64,000 nt of DNA from the NCBI RefSeq assembly GCF_030269325.1, contig NZ_BSTD01000002.1, forward strand, positions 62,001-126,000. The letters run 5' to 3'. The translations under genes were made by a program, and so were the position numbers. Of the stretch, positions 34,087 through 46,762 are shown one piece after another. The notes beneath the pieces were generated by a model that was not told the origin of the DNA, made no database searches, and saw nothing but the letters and a program-made list of their open reading frames with translations. Every line of letters starts with the position of its first letter. Position 1 is the stretch's first letter. Source of the DNA: Amycolatopsis sp. NBRC 101858. Its GTDB lineage: Bacteria; Actinomycetota; Actinomycetes; Mycobacteriales; Pseudonocardiaceae.

Positions 34087-35196
34087 CTAGGGCAGGCGGG
34101 GGTCGATGACGGCTTTGAGCTCGCCGAGCCGGGACATCGACTCGACGGCGGCGGACGCGCCGGCCAGCCCGACCGGCGCGCTGAACAGCTCCGCCCAGGG
34201 CATCCGGCCGGCGAACGCGCGGAAGAACTCCACGGAACGGTGGTAGTCGGCGATGTCGCCGTTGAGCGACCCGGCGATCGTCAGCTCCTTGCCCATCACC
34301 GTCCCCAGCGGCACGGGGGAGGGCGCCGGCCCGGTCGACCCGACGATCGCGACCGTCCCGCGTTGTGCCGCGAACGCGACGGCCTCTTCGCCGATCGTCG
34401 GCCCGCCCGCGAAGTCGAAGACGTGGTCCGCGCCGCGGCCGCCGGTCAGCTCACGCACCCGCTCGACGCGGTCGTCCGGAGTGGACTCGACGGGGACGGT
34501 CGCCGTGGCCCCGAACCGTTCGGCCACTTCGAGGCGGGACGAAGGCCCGCCGACGGTGATCACCACCCCGGCACCGCAGAGCCGCGCGACGGCCGTCGCG
34601 AACACGCCGAGCGCGCCCGCGCCCTGGACGACGACCGTCGCGTTCGGACGGATACCGCCGGACCGCGCGACCGCGCGCAGCACCGTCTTGCCCGCGCAGC
34701 CGGACATCGACGCCCAGGTGTCCTCGACGTCGTCCGGCAGCAGCAGTTTCGCGGCGCCGGGCGTGACGTAGCAATGTCGGGCGAGTCCGCCGGTCGCGTA
34801 CGGGAACCGGTCGGCGCGCTGGAGGAAGCCGTAGCCGCGACGCTCGCACGCGACCGGTTCGCGCAGGATCGTGCAGCCGTGGCAGCGGCCGCACGTCGAC
34901 TCCGACCAGCCGATGCGGTCACCGGGCCGGATTTCGCGGCCGAGCGTGTCGGTGGTGCCGGCTCCGGTGGCGACGACTTCGCCGACCATCTCGTGCCCCA
35001 GCACCATCGGCAGCATGCCGGGCAGGCTCATTTCCCCCGACCAGAGGTGGACGTCGGTGCCGCACAACGTGGTGCAGGTGAGCCGGACGAGTGCGGCGCC
35101 GGGCTCCGGCTCCCCGGGAAGGGGCAGCTCGCGCAGTTCGAGGGGCGCGTGGTGGCCGGTGAGGACGGCGGCCTCCGTGTGGGTGGGCAGGGCCAT
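34087..35196 (-). CDS. Zinc-dependent alcohol dehydrogenase (MDR family)
   Basis: 369 residues. Catalytic zinc residues in TTLCGTDVHLW and GHEMVGEV, structural-zinc cysteines in STCGRCHGCTILREPVACERRG, Rossmann motif VVVQGAGALGVFATAVARL. NAD(P)-dependent oxidation of an alcohol. Leads an ADH-AKR-esterase operon. The ATG at 35196 has no Shine-Dalgarno but TAGACT lies six bases upstream, so the mRNA is probably leaderless, with its -10 inside the operator at 35205-35218. Confidence 0.92.
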   Translation of the reverse strand: MALPTHTEAAVLTGHHAPLELRELPLPGEPEPGAALVRLTCTTLCGTDVHLWSGEMSLPGMLPMVLGHEMVGEVVATGAGTTDTLGREIRPGDRIGWSESTCGRCHGCTILREPVACERRGYGFLQRADRFPYATGGLARHCYVTPGAAKLLLPDDVEDTWASMSGCAGKTVLRAVARSGGIRPNATVVVQGAGALGVFATAVARLCGAGVVITVGGPSSRLEVAERFGATATVPVESTPDDRVERVRELTGGRGADHVFDFAGGPTIGEEAVAFAAQRGTVAIVGSTGPAPSPVPLGTVMGKELTIAGSLNGDIADYHRSVEFFRAFAGRMPWAELFSAPVGLAGASAAVESMSRLGELKAVIDPRLP

Positions 35197-35202
35197 CGTT
35201 TT

Positions 35203-35218
35203 AGTCTACAGTTGTGGA
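35203..35218. promoter_or_regulatory. TCTAC-N4-GTAGA operator copy 1 with overlapping divergent -10 elements
   Basis: TCTACAGTTGTGGA at 35205-35218, one mismatch from the palindromic consensus. It holds TACAGT on the plus strand (35207-35212) for the amidohydrolase gene and TAGACT on the minus strand (35208-35203) for the leaderless ADH gene. A repressor bound here would block both promoters. Confidence 0.78.
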
Positions 35219-35246
35219 AGATAAAGTCCAGGGCCGGAAGGAAACC

Positions 35247-36536
35247 ATGACGCCACAACGGATCCGGCCGGCCGACCTGGTGGTGCACCGGGGCACCGTG
35301 CACACCTTCGACGCGGCGGGCACGGTGGCGGACGGCCTGGCCGTGCGCGACGGCCGCGTCCTCGCGGTCGGGGACGTCACCGGCCACATCGGACCGGCCA
35401 CCGCGGTCCTGGACCTCGCCGGGCGCACGGTGCTGCCCGGCATCAACGACGCGCACCTGCACGCCACCTGGCTCGGCGCGCGCTGGCCGCACCCGCTGCT
35501 CGGCGCGCCGCACGAGGAGAAGCCGGTGACGACCGGCGCGGAACGCCGGGCGGCGATCCTGCGCGCGGGCGAGGTCTGCGCGTCGCTGGGCATCACCAGC
35601 TACACCGAACCCGGCCTCGGCCCCGGCGAGACGGGGTGCTTCTCGGCGGAAGTCCTGGGCGAATACGCGGCCCTGCACCGCGAAGGCCGGCTGCGGGCGC
35701 GGGTCACCGTCCTGCGTCTCTTCGGCCTCCTCGACGGTGTCAGTTCGGCGGAGGACTTCCTGCGTGGCCTGGAAACGCCGGTGCCGGACGCGGATCCGGA
35801 GTGGCTGGCGGTCACCGGCGTCAAGATCTTCGCCGACGGGATCCCGCCGATGCGCACGGCCTGGACGCACCACTGCTACGCCGACGGCTCCCACGGCGCC
35901 CTGCTCGTCGACGGCCCCGACGACGACGCCCGCGCGGCGAACCTGGCGTCGATGATCGCGGCGGCCCATCGGGCGGGCCTGGTCGTCGGGGTGCACGCGA
36001 CGGGGGAGCGCAGCATCGAAGCCGCGCTCGCCCATCTGCGGGCCGGCGACCACCTGGTCCACGGCGATCTCGTCACGCCCGCGCAGCTGCGCCGGATGGC
36101 GTCCACCGGGGTCGGCCTGACCACGCAGCCGGCGATCGCGACGGCGATGCGCCCGATGGTCGCCACCGCCCTGGGCAACGAAGTCGCGGCTAAGGCGTGG
36201 CCACTCCGGAGCATCCTCGGCTCCCGGGTCCGGCTGACGTTGAGCAGCGACGCGCCGGTCGTCACGCCGGACTGGCGCGTCCACCTCGCGGCGGCGGGGG
36301 AGCTGCTCGGCCTGCGAGGTGTGACACCGGACCTGACTGCGCGGCTCCTTCGCTGCTATACCACCGAAGCCGCCGCGCAGGACGGATCGGCGAGCTGGAA
36401 GGGCTCACTCGTACCCGGCATGGCGGCCGACTTCTGCGTCCTGGCCGACGATCCGCACGACATCGCCCTGGCGGACCTGCCGTCGGTCGCGGTCGAGCTG
36501 ACCGTGACCGGCGGCCGCATCGTCCACGAGGCCTAA
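35247..36536 (+). CDS. Amidohydrolase family protein (YtcJ-like)
   Basis: 429 residues. Small composite beta domain from both termini and a metal-dependent barrel: metal ligands His70 and His72 in INDAHLHATW, VKIFADGIPPMRTAW, His in VHATGERSIE and HGDLVTPAQL, Asp in LTLSSDAPV. Acts on a C-N bond of an unknown substrate; YtcJ-like members often hydrolyse amides, carbamates or cyclic ureas. GGAAGGA before the ATG at 35247; an alternative upstream GTG would place the coding region inside the operator. Convergent with, and overlapping by four bases, the SDR gene. Confidence 0.9.
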   Translation: MTPQRIRPADLVVHRGTVHTFDAAGTVADGLAVRDGRVLAVGDVTGHIGPATAVLDLAGRTVLPGINDAHLHATWLGARWPHPLLGAPHEEKPVTTGAERRAAILRAGEVCASLGITSYTEPGLGPGETGCFSAEVLGEYAALHREGRLRARVTVLRLFGLLDGVSSAEDFLRGLETPVPDADPEWLAVTGVKIFADGIPPMRTAWTHHCYADGSHGALLVDGPDDDARAANLASMIAAAHRAGLVVGVHATGERSIEAALAHLRAGDHLVHGDLVTPAQLRRMASTGVGLTTQPAIATAMRPMVATALGNEVAAKAWPLRSILGSRVRLTLSSDAPVVTPDWRVHLAAAGELLGLRGVTPDLTARLLRCYTTEAAAQDGSASWKGSLVPGMAADFCVLADDPHDIALADLPSVAVELTVTGGRIVHEA

Positions 36537-37261
36537 GTGAGGAGCTGCCCGCCGTCGACCGCCAGGCTCACCCCGGTGATGTGCTTCGCGGCCGCCAAGA
36601 AGACCACCGCCGGCGCGACGTCCTCGACGTCGGCGATCCGCCCCAGCGGGATCCGGGCCTCCCAGGCCGCGCGGGCGGCGGTGTCCGCGGCGAACCCGGC
36701 GGTCATCGGTGTGCGCACCGGGCCGGGCGCGACCGCGTTCACCCGGATTCCGTGCGGGGCCAGCTCGAGCGCCGCCGACCGCGTCAGCGCGTCCACGGCC
36801 GCCTTGGTGGCTTCGTAGTGGCCGAGGCCCGGCGTCGGCTGGCGGGCACCGATCGAGGAGACGTTGACGATCGCACCCCGCGTCCCCGCCGCGACCATGT
36901 GCGCGCCGACCGCGCGGGTCATCAGGAACGTGCCGCGGAAGTTGACCCGCACGCAGCGGTCGAAGACGTCGATGTCCAGTCCGGTCAGGGGCCCGCCGCC
37001 GCCGGCGAGCCCGGCGTTGTTGACGAGCACGTCCACCGGCCCGAAGCGGTCCGAGACGAGTGAGACGGCCGCGTCGACCGAACTCGGGTCCGAGATGTCC
37101 AGTTCGACGTGCTCCGCGCCGAGCTCCCGGGCGACGTCGTGCGCCGCGCGGGCATCGACGTCGGCGAGGACGACCCGGTCGCCCGCGGCGAGGAACGCTT
37201 CGGCGACCCCTCGTCCGATCCCGCTCGCGCCACCCGTGACCACCACGATCCGTGCTTTCAT
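36533..37261 (-). CDS. Short-chain dehydrogenase/reductase
   Basis: 242 residues, classical SDR: VVVTGGASGIGRGVAEA cofactor motif, Asp in LADVD (NAD preference), NNAG, Ser in NVSSIGA, Tyr-x-x-x-Lys in HYEATKAAVD, and IRVNAVAPGPV. The ATG at 37261 directly abuts the operator; TACGAT (37273-37268, minus strand) is six bases upstream, so the mRNA is probably leaderless, as for the ADH gene. Monocistronic; probably oxidises a hydroxyl of the substrate of this locus. Confidence 0.92.
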   Translation of the reverse strand: MKARIVVVTGGASGIGRGVAEAFLAAGDRVVLADVDARAAHDVARELGAEHVELDISDPSSVDAAVSLVSDRFGPVDVLVNNAGLAGGGGPLTGLDIDVFDRCVRVNFRGTFLMTRAVGAHMVAAGTRGAIVNVSSIGARQPTPGLGHYEATKAAVDALTRSAALELAPHGIRVNAVAPGPVRTPMTAGFAADTAARAAWEARIPLGRIADVEDVAPAVVFLAAAKHITGVSLAVDGGQLLT

Positions 37262-37275
37262 TCTACAATCGTAGA
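37262..37275. promoter_or_regulatory. TCTAC-N4-GTAGA operator copy 2 (perfect), divergent promoters
   Basis: TCTACAATCGTAGA is a perfect-armed palindrome. Its plus strand contains TACAAT (37264-37269), a -10 for the aldo/keto reductase gene at 37307, and its minus strand TACGAT, a -10 for the leaderless SDR gene. The palindrome therefore encodes two back-to-back -10 boxes. Confidence 0.82.
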
Positions 37276-37306
37276 CGAACGATGTGCTGAAACGGAAGGA
37301 AAGCTC

Positions 37307-38233
37307 GTGAGCGTGCTCGGGAAGTCGGTCTTCGGCCTCGGTTCGTGGAACACCTGGGACCGGATGGGGTTCGGCGACGCCGTCCGGCTGCTGCGCACCG
37401 CGGTCGACACCGGCGTGCGGCTGTTCGACGTGGCGCACTACGACTTCGGCCCGCACGCGGAGAACTCACGCACCGACGTGATCTTCGGGAAGGCCGTGCG
37501 GGACGCGGGGATCGCGCGCGAGGACTACGTGCTCTGCGGGAAGCTGTGGCTGTGGGACTACCCGCGTGCCGGGTTCGCGCGGCAGCTGGAGACGTCGCTG
37601 GGCCGGATCGGCACCGGGCACGCGGACCTGGTCGTGGTGGGGGACTACCGCGAGCGGCCGGACGTCCCGCGGGTCGTGACGGAGGTGGCCGAGCAGGTCC
37701 GGGCCGGGCGGATCGGCGGCTGGGGCGTCAACAACTGGCTCGCCGCCGACCTCGACCTCGCGCTGGAGTTCGCCGCGCGCGAAGGTCTCCCCGCGCCGGA
37801 GTTCGCGCAGCTGAAGTACTCGATCGCCCGCCGGTCGATGGCCGAAGGCGAGTGCTACGGCAAGCACATCGCGAGCGGACGGCTGGTGCTGCAGGCCTCG
37901 GACGTCTTCGAAGGCGGCGTCCTGCTGGGCAACGCGACCCCCGCGCGCAAGATCGGTGCCGACCCGGGCGGCATCCGTCAGTCCATCGTGGACGCTGCGG
38001 CCGAGCTGACGGCGATCGCGGCGGACTTCGGCGCGACACGGGCCCAGCTCGCGCTGGCGTTCTGCCTGGCGTACGCACCGGTGGCGAACGTCCTGTTCGG
38101 AGTGAGCCGGGCCGGCCAGCTGGCCGACAACCTGGGCGCGCTCGACCTGGCCCGCCGGCACGGCACGGAGATCCGCACGGCCCTCGACCACCTGTGGCTG
38201 GACCGCGACGTCAACCCCGACGGCTCCTGGTGA
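37307..38233 (+). CDS. Aldo/keto reductase family protein without the catalytic His (paralogue B)
   Basis: 308 residues. Same subfamily as the protein at 33131-34078: FGLGSWNTWDRMGFGDAV, LFDVAHYDFGP, Lys in LCGKLWLWDYP, IGGWGVNNWLA, FAQLKYSIARRSM, LQASDVFEGGVLLGN. The position of the catalytic His reads DLVVVGDYR (Gly). Possibly the two form a heteromer or act on successive intermediates. GTG start with GGAAGGA six bases upstream; about a 30-base leader after the operator. Confidence 0.88.
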   Translation: MSVLGKSVFGLGSWNTWDRMGFGDAVRLLRTAVDTGVRLFDVAHYDFGPHAENSRTDVIFGKAVRDAGIAREDYVLCGKLWLWDYPRAGFARQLETSLGRIGTGHADLVVVGDYRERPDVPRVVTEVAEQVRAGRIGGWGVNNWLAADLDLALEFAAREGLPAPEFAQLKYSIARRSMAEGECYGKHIASGRLVLQASDVFEGGVLLGNATPARKIGADPGGIRQSIVDAAAELTAIAADFGATRAQLALAFCLAYAPVANVLFGVSRAGQLADNLGALDLARRHGTEIRTALDHLWLDRDVNPDGSW

Positions 38234-44029: not shown

Positions 44030-44104
44030 GGATTCCCCTTCCTCGCGCCCGCCGCGACGGGCGAGCCGGACTGCCGGGGGCCGGCAGGGGTAGTTTTACG
44101 CATG

Positions 44105-44130
44105 TTGACACTCCCGGAAGGGCGTGTCAA
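44105..44130. repeat. Inverted repeat with TTGACAC arms in the importer promoter region
   Basis: TTGACAC (44105-44111) and GTGTCAA (44124-44130) flank a 12-base spacer. Each arm contains a consensus -35 TTGACA facing outward across the spacer; on the minus strand TTGACA is 17 bases from CAACAT, a weak -10. It could be a second promoter or a binding site for another regulator. Confidence 0.55.
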
Positions 44131-44137
44131 TGGTTTT

Positions 44138-44153
44138 ATTCTACGAACGTAGG
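44138..44153. promoter_or_regulatory. TCTAC-N4-GTAGA operator copy 3 (importer operon)
   Basis: TCTACGAACGTAGG at 44140-44153, one mismatch. TAGAAT on the minus strand (44143-44138) overlaps it and is a good -10 for the importer operon, whose first start codon is at 44029. Confidence 0.78.
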
Positions 44154-44213: not shown

Positions 44214-44227
44214 TCTACGCATGTAGA
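44214..44227. promoter_or_regulatory. TCTAC-N4-GTAGA operator copy 4 (perfect)
   Basis: TCTACGCATGTAGA, perfect arms, 29 bases before the start of the methyltransferase-like gene. TAGAGT at 44224-44229 overlaps its right arm and is a possible -10. It lies 74 bases from copy 3, about seven helical turns, so looping or cooperative binding is possible. Confidence 0.8.
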
Positions 44228-44255
44228 GTGTCCGGGTCGAACAAAGGAGGACGAC

Positions 44256-45230
44256 GTGACGACGACCCCAGCCACGCCGCAACGGATCGTGGACATCGCG
44301 GTGGGCTACATGGCCGCCCAGCAGCTCTTCGCCGCCAACCGGATCGGCCTGTTCCCGGCACTGGCCGCCGGCCCGCTGACCGCCGCGGACCTGGCCGCGC
44401 GCACCGGACGGCCGGAGAAGATCACCCGGATCCTCGGCGACGCATTGGCATCCCTCGGCCTGCTGTCCCGTGTGGACGGTCGATACGCCCTCACGGCCGA
44501 CACTGCCGCCCACCTCGGCGGCGACGGCCTCGACCTGGCGCCCTTCCTGACGTTCCTCGAGACGATCAGCTACCCGCACTGGCAGCAGTTCGCGCACACC
44601 ACCGACACCGGCGAACCCGGCGACCTCGACCTCACCGGCGAACGCTGGGACACCTTCCTCGGCGGGGTGATGGCGTATAACGCCCTACACGCCCGGCAGC
44701 TGGCGCACGCTTTCGACTTCGGAGGCTTCAAAAACCTCCTGGACCTGGGCGGGCTTTCGGCCGAATTCGCGCTCGGCGCGCTGCGGGCCAACGACGTCCT
44801 GCGAGCGACGTTCGTCTACGACCCGCGGTCGGTGCCGTCGGTGACCGCGGCGGTGGCTCCCTTCGCGGACCGGACCGCTGTTCACGGCGTACCGACTCCG
44901 GAAGCCGAGCCGGAGGGCGAGTTCGACCTGGTCATGGTGAACCACGTGGTGCACCGGTTCACCGTCGACGAGAACCGGGCGATCCTGCGGCACGCGCGAG
45001 CCGCGGCGGCGCCGGGCGCGCGGCTGCTGCTGCTCGACTTCTTCCTCGACGACGACGCCACGCCGCGGGCCCTCGACGCACTGCACGCGGGGGAGTACCT
45101 GGTCATCGACGGCACGGTGGTGTACCCGGAAGCGGACGTGCGCGGCTGGCTGTCCGGCGCGGGGTGGCGCACGGTGGACCGGCTGACGCTGCCGGGTTCG
45201 CCGCGGGTCCTGGTGGCGGAGGCGGTATGA
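44256..45230 (+). CDS. O-methyltransferase-like protein with degenerate SAM motif
   Basis: 324 residues. N-terminal winged-helix dimerisation domain (VDIAVGYMAAQQLFAANRIGLFPAL, then DLAARTGRPEKITRIL) and C-terminal Rossmann domain as in HIOMT/acetylserotonin O-methyltransferases. The SAM loop, normally DxGGGxG, reads LLDLGGLSAEFA; later motifs (VMVNHVVHRFTVDENRAILRHAR, ARLLLLDFF) are preserved. It may bind SAM poorly or have another role, as in SAM-dependent non-methylating relatives (inference). GTG start with AAAGGAGG five bases upstream. First gene of a two-gene operon with an esterase. Confidence 0.82.
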   Translation: MTTTPATPQRIVDIAVGYMAAQQLFAANRIGLFPALAAGPLTAADLAARTGRPEKITRILGDALASLGLLSRVDGRYALTADTAAHLGGDGLDLAPFLTFLETISYPHWQQFAHTTDTGEPGDLDLTGERWDTFLGGVMAYNALHARQLAHAFDFGGFKNLLDLGGLSAEFALGALRANDVLRATFVYDPRSVPSVTAAVAPFADRTAVHGVPTPEAEPEGEFDLVMVNHVVHRFTVDENRAILRHARAAAAPGARLLLLDFFLDDDATPRALDALHAGEYLVIDGTVVYPEADVRGWLSGAGWRTVDRLTLPGSPRVLVAEAV

Positions 45231-46137: not shown

Positions 46138-46725
46138 TCAGGGGCGGGTGAGCCTCCCGAGCAGCGACTCCAGGTGCCGGTGCTGGAGCTCGACGGTGGA
46201 GAACTCACCCGCCACCAGGCTCATGACGTTGGCGCCGGCGTTGAGCAGGACGATCTCGTCGACGAGCTGCTCGTCGGGGGTTTCGGTGACGATGTCGCCG
46301 TCCTCGCGGCCTTCGGCGAGGAAGCGGTGCAGGAGGCCGCGCCACTCGCGGACGTGCTCGAGGTACTTGTCGTGCATGGCCCGGTTGGCGAGCGACATCT
46401 GCCAGAAGATCATCAGCACCCGCCCGGCGGTGATGCGTTCCTCGTCGATCGGCATGGAGGAGACGCAGATTTCCCGGAGCGCGGTGAGCCCGCGCAGGCC
46501 GTCGAGCTCGACGTATTGGCGCATCATGTCGAGCGCGCGTTCGTAGGTGGCCGCGATGATGTCTTCCTTGCTGGGGAAGTACAGCTTGAGGGCCCCGTTG
46601 GCGAACCCGGCGGCGGCGGCGATCTCGCGCATGGTGGCGGCTTCGATGCCCCCGCGCACGATGAGGTCCCAGGTGACCTCGACGATGTCCCTGCGCCGCT
46701 GGTCGTGGTCGATGATCTTGGGCAC
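46138..46725 (-). CDS. TetR-family repressor (BetI-like), probable regulator of the TCTAC-N4-GTAGA regulon
   Basis: 195 residues. HTH about 10-55: RRRDIVEVTWDLIVRGGIEA, MREIAAAAGFANGALKLYFPSKEDII; C-terminal helical ligand domain with IFWQMSLANRAMHDKYLEHVREWR, the BetI-type arrangement. GTG start with GGGAGG about eight bases upstream. A copy of the shared palindrome lies 24 bases upstream and contains TACACT, a possible -10, suggesting autorepression. As the only regulator in the 31-47 kb block, it is the best candidate for binding all five palindromes. Confidence 0.9.
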   Translation of the reverse strand: MPKIIDHDQRRRDIVEVTWDLIVRGGIEAATMREIAAAAGFANGALKLYFPSKEDIIAATYERALDMMRQYVELDGLRGLTALREICVSSMPIDEERITAGRVLMIFWQMSLANRAMHDKYLEHVREWRGLLHRFLAEGREDGDIVTETPDEQLVDEIVLLNAGANVMSLVAGEFSTVELQHRHLESLLGRLTRP

Positions 46726-46748: not shown

Positions 46749-46762
46749 TCTACCAGTGTAGG
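46749..46762. promoter_or_regulatory. TCTAC-N4-GTAGA operator copy 5 (tetR autoregulation)
   Basis: TCTACCAGTGTAGG, one mismatch, within a longer dyad (TTTCTC/GAGAAA flanks). TACACT on the minus strand (46760-46755) is a -10 for the TetR gene. Confidence 0.8.

Follow-up and report, generated by a model that had tools for sequence, protein, structure and literature searches.

Two short palindromes in a gene cluster of the soil actinomycete Amycolatopsis sp. NBRC 101858, here called sites A and B, are likely operators of a TetR-family regulator encoded at 46138-46725 and, at the same time, the cores of two bidirectional promoters, each serving one gene that is predicted to be leaderless. Both lie in a 64,000-nucleotide stretch of the genome (assembly GCF_030269325.1, contig NZ_BSTD01000002.1, positions 62,001 to 126,000; hereafter the window, numbered from its first letter), site A between an alcohol dehydrogenase and an amidohydrolase gene and site B between a short-chain dehydrogenase and an aldo/keto reductase gene. 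The reading as two promoters, already proposed in an initial annotation of the window, gained support from three sequence tests: the spacing between -10 hexamer and start codon, the base that completes the gene-facing -10, and the occurrence of an opposite-facing -10 in relation to a divergent gene.

Paired candidate -10 hexamers at sites A and B

The two sites and the genes that flank them are listed below. The 15 aligned genomes are the window's own and 14 further genomes having the full cluster, SDR loci are the 37 places in family genomes where the palindrome TCTACNNNNGTAGA directly adjoins the ATG of the short-chain dehydrogenase gene, and start points are predicted by placing +1 at 7 bp past the hexamer.

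35205..35218, putative operator site A, TCTACAGTTGTGGA; imperfect palindrome with one mismatch to TCTACNNNNGTAGA
35207..35212, plus strand, predicted -10 TACAGT of the amidohydrolase gene; predicted +1 at 35219; TANNNT in 15/15 genomes including the window
35208-35203, minus strand, predicted -10 TAGACT of the alcohol dehydrogenase gene; predicted +1 at the A of ATG 35196; TANNNT in 15/15 genomes
34087..35196, minus strand, zinc-type alcohol dehydrogenase (ADH), predicted leaderless; Pfam ADH_N and ADH_zinc_N
35247..36536, plus strand, amidohydrolase, leadered; Pfam Amidohydro_3
37262..37275, putative operator site B, TCTACAATCGTAGA; perfect palindrome arms
37264..37269, plus strand, predicted -10 TACAAT of the aldo/keto reductase gene; predicted +1 at 37276; TANNNT in 15/15 genomes and 36/37 SDR loci
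37273-37268, minus strand, predicted -10 TACGAT of the short-chain dehydrogenase gene; predicted +1 at the A of ATG 37261; TANNNT in 15/15 genomes and 37/37 SDR loci
36533..37261, minus strand, short-chain dehydrogenase (SDR), predicted leaderless; Pfam adh_short_C2, NF005559 above cut-off
37307..38233, plus strand, aldo/keto reductase (AKR), leadered, GTG start at 37307; Pfam Aldo_ket_red

At both sites, -10 hexamers on opposite strands overlap or share bases, the arrangement that marks bidirectional promoters, and the hexamers named in the initial annotation (TACAAT and TACGAT at site B, TACAGT and TAGACT at site A, plus strand first) can be read directly in the sequence. The same annotation held that the -10 pair is built into the palindrome itself. 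This is true of site B, where the two inner hexamers overlap by two bases and both lie entirely within the 14-mer, but not of site A, where TAGACT shares one TA with TACAGT and reaches 2 bp beyond the palindrome. Its statement that SDR and ADH start six nucleotides after their -10 and lack a Shine-Dalgarno sequence was confirmed: TGTAGA separates TACGAT from the SDR ATG at 37261, which adjoins site B, AAAACG separates TAGACT from the ADH ATG at 35196, and no GGAG, GAGG or AGGA was found within 20 nt upstream of either ATG. A Shine-Dalgarno-like GGAAGG precedes each of the partner genes, at 35236-35241 upstream of ATG 35247 for the amidohydrolase and at 37294-37299 upstream of GTG 37307 for the AKR. 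The predicted start points at site A are 23 bp apart, and CTGGAC stands 17 bp upstream of the ADH TAGACT in all 15 aligned genomes. Across the 31 SDR loci having enough sequence, site A is present with at most one mismatch in all 31, and the ADH ATG lies exactly 6 nt after TAGACT in 29.

TANNNT placed 6 or 7 nt before an ATG is a real, spacing-specific signal in this genome. Over 464 kb (the window plus 400 kb, with 249 reading frames from a simple GC-based rule and 552 candidate ATGs), the hexamer occurred eight times at 6 nt and eight times at 7 nt, compared to seven times in total over the other 19 spacings between 0 and 20 nt. The rise before GTG (1375 candidates) was broader, with 7 at 6 nt, 5 at 7 nt, and then 5, 4, and 3 at 8–10 nt (12 at 6–7 nt versus 25 over the other 19 spacings), and the control triplet CTC had no TANNNT at 6 or 7 nt upstream in the same 464 kb. 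TANNNT is reported as the common -10 both for Mycobacterium tuberculosis, in which 26% of genes with a primary start are leaderless (PMC3898074), and for Streptomyces coelicolor, in which 21% of primary starts are leaderless (PMC4895711).

Completing bases and gene orientation

Searching 390 genomes of the family, TCTACNNNNGTAGA followed directly by ATG was found at 66 places in 65 genomes (reversed pattern, 1), consisting of 37 SDR loci, 26 alpha/beta-hydrolase loci, and 3 other loci. The third base of the four-base spacer, a T that completes the gene-facing -10, was present in 64 of the 66 (SDR, 37/37; hydrolase, 26/26; other, 1/3). Where the ATG was 1–30 nt away, this T occurred in 19 of 150 among the matches listed, a few of which repeat palindromes from the 66, an overlap that favours T there. 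A Shine-Dalgarno-like stretch stood between palindrome and ATG in 68 of the 150 matches listed, with the T in 5 of those 68, and among the matches listed no palindrome lay 1, 2, 4, or 5 nt from the ATG, with 10 at 3 nt. These palindromes at 1–30 nt seem largely to belong to other TetR systems. Overall, the base completing the gene-facing -10 is, in the genomes compared, nearly fixed where the site adjoins the ATG and not in the same palindrome elsewhere.

A frequent class of sites resembling TCTACANNTGTAGA, found in several genera among the matches listed, has GGAGG directly after the palindrome and then the start codon; this class appears to be the same palindrome with leadered genes, the Shine-Dalgarno adjoining the operator.

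The SDR and hydrolase loci differ in what lies on the other side of the palindrome. The AKR gene reads away from the site in 36 of 37 SDR loci (best tblastn match) and, by reading frame, in the remaining one (G033). Among the 26 hydrolase loci, 24 follow a co-directional TetR gene (G069 is cut by a contig end and G398 is arranged otherwise), and 25 have no divergent coding-like frame within 246 nt under a crude coding rule, only G398 having one. An opposite inner -10, marked by A as the second spacer base, was present in 36/37 SDR loci versus 5/26 hydrolase loci, and an opposite -10 of either kind, inner or outer, in 37/37 versus 6/26 (Fisher's values 4.6e-11 and 1.7e-11, which overstate the strength of the difference as the genomes are related). 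The sole SDR locus without the inner A (G250) possesses the outer TAGACT. Within the window's genus alone, an opposite -10, inner or outer, was found in 35/35 SDR and 3/6 hydrolase loci, and of the 17 hydrolase loci in which the TetR stop is <150 nt from the site, one (G066) has it. These counts support the view that, some exceptions aside, an opposite-facing -10 accompanies a divergent gene. A hidden divergent gene was sought in the hydrolase loci with an opposite -10, an idea that mostly failed and left only G398, which has a GntR-like frame with a coding signal.

In the mechanism proposed, the half-site (G)TAGA or TCTAC would provide the TA of each -10 hexamer, with the last T of an inner hexamer, TACNNT, coming from the four-base spacer and that of an outer hexamer, TAGACT, from just outside the palindrome; site B would thereby hold two overlapping inner hexamers, and site A an inner and an outer hexamer sharing one TA. 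The sequences themselves show the hexamers, how these are spaced and conserved, and their association with gene orientation. We infer that RNA polymerase uses these hexamers, that SDR and ADH transcripts start at the first base of the coding sequence and are translated as leaderless mRNA, and that the transcripts of AKR and the amidohydrolase begin with a leader of ~30 nt that includes a Shine-Dalgarno. When bound, a TetR dimer would lie over both -10s and shut off transcription either way until a ligand released it. A plausible though tentative extension is that the four-base spacer may set promoter direction independently of the repressor, with T at position 3 serving one way and A at position 2 the other; TetR would tolerate all spacers, a single base could turn a one-way into a two-way promoter, and evolution may have used this as genes moved beside the operator.

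The cluster and its probable regulator

The region, an Amycolatopsis-type cluster, contains six such sites altogether along with a TetR gene, and the relatives with 91–94% identical TetR are, where named, Amycolatopsis species. The four further sites, C–F, precede an ABC transporter operon, an O-methyltransferase gene, and the TetR gene.

44095..44108, putative site C, degenerate TTTACGCATGTTGA in the window and TCTACGCATGTTGA in aligned relatives
44140..44153, putative operator site D, TCTACGAACGTAGG; TACGTT (minus strand) faces the ABC transporter operon; TANNNT in 15/15 genomes
44214..44227, putative operator site E, TCTACGCATGTAGA; outer -10 TAGAGT at 44224-44229 (plus strand); TANNNT in 15/15 genomes, with a spacer that varies
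44256-45230, O-methyltransferase gene, faced by the outer -10 of site E
46749..46762, putative operator site F, TCTACCAGTGTAGG; TACACT (minus strand) faces tetR
46138..46725, minus strand, TetR-family regulator, proposed repressor of the six sites; Pfam TetR_N 1.8e-12

All six sites recur in the 14 further genomes having the full cluster, site C having been assigned manually for the window and one other genome (G020), where mismatches exceed one. The hexamers A+, A-, B+, B-, D-, E+, and F- (site and strand) are all TANNNT in 15/15 genomes, and the aligned genomes have CTGGAC or CTGGAT at site E with the same 17 bp spacing as at ADH. Site C has a perfect TTGACA (44130-44125, minus strand) 18 bp upstream of its hexamer in 15/15 genomes, but the hexamer itself reads AACATG; two promoters, one at C and one at D, may therefore serve the transporter operon. 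The cluster (30878-51787) also contains frames that, read from their translations, are GMC-type oxidoreductase-like, aldehyde-dehydrogenase-like, and amine-oxidase-like, together with esterases.

Within the 11.16-Mb genome, TCTACNNNNGTAGA occurs at three places, two of them in the window; with at most one mismatch it occurs at 16 places genome-wide, five of them inside 11.6 kb of the window. A reversed control pattern gave 21 places genome-wide, so that the genome-wide count amounts to background and the information lies in the clustering alone. For the looser TCTACNNNNGTRGA with at most two mismatches, 35 matches across the window compared to 35.9 in shuffles showed no excess, and looser matches are thus meaningless by themselves. 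An alternative pattern, WTTGTAGACNA, had 19 matches against 10.5 expected, and the palindrome was preferred to it.

The initial annotation left the repressor of the sites unnamed; the most likely candidate is the TetR protein encoded at 46138-46725. Site F precedes 15/15 close TetR genes examined, the window's included, and among congeners the palindrome follows the regulator: a perfect palindrome-ATG is present in 17/17 whose TetR is ≥80% identical (own genome included), in 2/4 with a 44–47% identical relative (the remaining two having a one-mismatch version), and in 0/15 with neither TetR type. Conservation among 40 TetR sequences, the window's included, is highest in the N-terminal DNA-binding part, as is usual for the TetR family, and a PDB search with the protein returned distant TetR relatives, the best being 2nx4 (3.3e-29). 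A set of 65 more distant actinobacterial loci fetched by TetR similarity (L171-L235, including Leucobacter, Leifsonia, and Nonomuraea) contained 190 sites with at most one mismatch, in 61 of the 65 loci (reversed pattern, 5). At least one TANNNT was found in 167 of these 190 sites, with a start codon 6–7 nt from the hexamer at only five, from which the overlap of operator and -10 is probably old; the leaderless register is found mostly in the window's family.

Two other places in the genome carry comparable elements and were set aside, as they seem part of other TetR systems. In one (L003 1501-1532; G000:C9:62638-62669), two adjacent palindromes of the same type separate a leadered FAD-monooxygenase-like gene from a TetR-like gene read divergently, and TAGAGT lies a short way upstream of the likely start of the TetR-like gene; this may be a second TetR system whose operator resembles the present one. 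The other (L064 1501-1541; G000:C5:990355-990393) has the related boxes TATACACCTGTAGA and TCTACACTCGTATA between SDR-like and TetR-like genes (names at both places are from translations); here the TetR-like gene, with an ATG 7 nt after TACACT, is probably another leaderless autoregulated TetR.

Alternative readings and known systems

Several observations weigh against sites A and B being both operators and bidirectional promoters. No recognisable -35 lies upstream of either site B hexamer in the window (best 2/6); among the aligned genomes, the AKR direction has a 4/6 match at 16 bp in one genome and otherwise none recognisable, and for the SDR direction most members of one clade, though not the window, show CTGGCA-like matches at 19 bp. 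The predicted start points at site B are 15 bp apart, outside the common bidirectional spacings (18, 10, and 23 bp). The ADH ATG at the six-nucleotide distance is missing in 2 of the 31 SDR loci (G177 and G250), and five of the six hydrolase loci with an opposite -10 (G010, G026, G171, G066, and G375) are without a convincing divergent gene. No site with at most one mismatch was found before any of 25 distant TetR genes (<50% identity), and the start-codon distance of 6–7 nt is rare among the 190 distant sites, as given above. The genomes are kin, so the counts overstate independence. Further, an outer TAGACT for AKR is also present in 25 of the 37 SDR loci, where TACNAT may be unused.

This last point is the basis of a reading in which site B is bidirectional and AKR uses the outer TAGACT, with start points 23 bp apart, the inner TACNAT being a leftover or an operator preference. 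It is favoured by the presence of TAGACT in G250, the only SDR locus without the inner A, and by 23 bp being a common class in Escherichia coli, and it would imply a weak or shifted AKR promoter in the window, which has TAGACG. However, 12 of the 37 SDR loci, including that of the window, lack TAGANT, and TACNAT is present in every one of these 12; AKR relying on the outer hexamer is unlikely, if worth keeping in view. A broader objection is that the palindromes could be ordinary operators, with hexamers that are by-products of GTAGA/TCTAC and true promoters elsewhere. The half-sites do fix the TA, a single T completes each hexamer, and the frequency of TANNNT in the distant sites (167/190, chance accounting for part) fits such a view, but the completing T is found in 64/66 where the ATG adjoins versus 19/150 farther off, among matches listed, and the other completing base mostly tracks gene orientation, which makes a by-product origin quite improbable. 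It is most improbable of all that SDR starts farther upstream, with the palindrome inside its coding sequence. Though the SDR reading frame is open upstream to 37456, a perfect palindrome adjoins the ATG in 37 SDR loci, the DNA upstream differs between clades and contains the AKR leader with its Shine-Dalgarno, and the ATG sits at the distance upstream of the TGGxSGIG motif that is usual for SDRs.

With sites A and B taken as operators that are also promoter cores, the system can be set beside known ones; no description of this regulon was found among the open-access papers listed in text searches, covered mostly as titles and the beginnings of abstracts. In TetR-family catabolic regulons such as KstR, short palindromes occur in several intergenic regions and at the regulator's own promoter. 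The present cluster has the same layout, with a different operator and other genes. The predicted SDR and ADH promoters also resemble actinobacterial leaderless promoters, as described in PMC3898074 and PMC4895711, in having TANNNT 6 nt before the ATG, no Shine-Dalgarno, and, at site B, a weak or absent -35. They differ in that the -10 and all (site B) or the edge (site A) of the stretch leading to the ATG would belong to the operator, so that operator and start codon would be held in a fixed register. If true, operator, both -10 boxes, start codon, and a transcription start would be packed into ~20 bp, and the signals for repressor, polymerase, and ribosome would thus be fixed in register. 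The loci, some having a divergent gene and others not, would then also offer a natural series suited to testing the gain and loss of bidirectional promoters in bacteria that commonly use leaderless mRNAs.

The authors of PMC12825309 state that bidirectional promoters have received hardly any study. In their E. coli data, such promoters have overlapping -10s and starts that commonly lie 18, 10, or 23 bp from each other, and transcription of acrA/acrR is repressed in both directions by the TetR-family protein AcrR. Sites A and B share with acrA/acrR the overlapping opposite-strand -10s, close predicted starts (23 bp at site A), and a TetR-family repressor that would act on both directions. Unlike in acrA/acrR, the -10s here would be built from the operator half-sites, the starts are predicted only (15 bp apart at site B), one gene of each pair is predicted to be leaderless, and the repressor gene lies outside the divergent pair. 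Sites A and B thus appear to resemble a known type of compact switch, that of acrA/acrR, here with leaderless transcripts.

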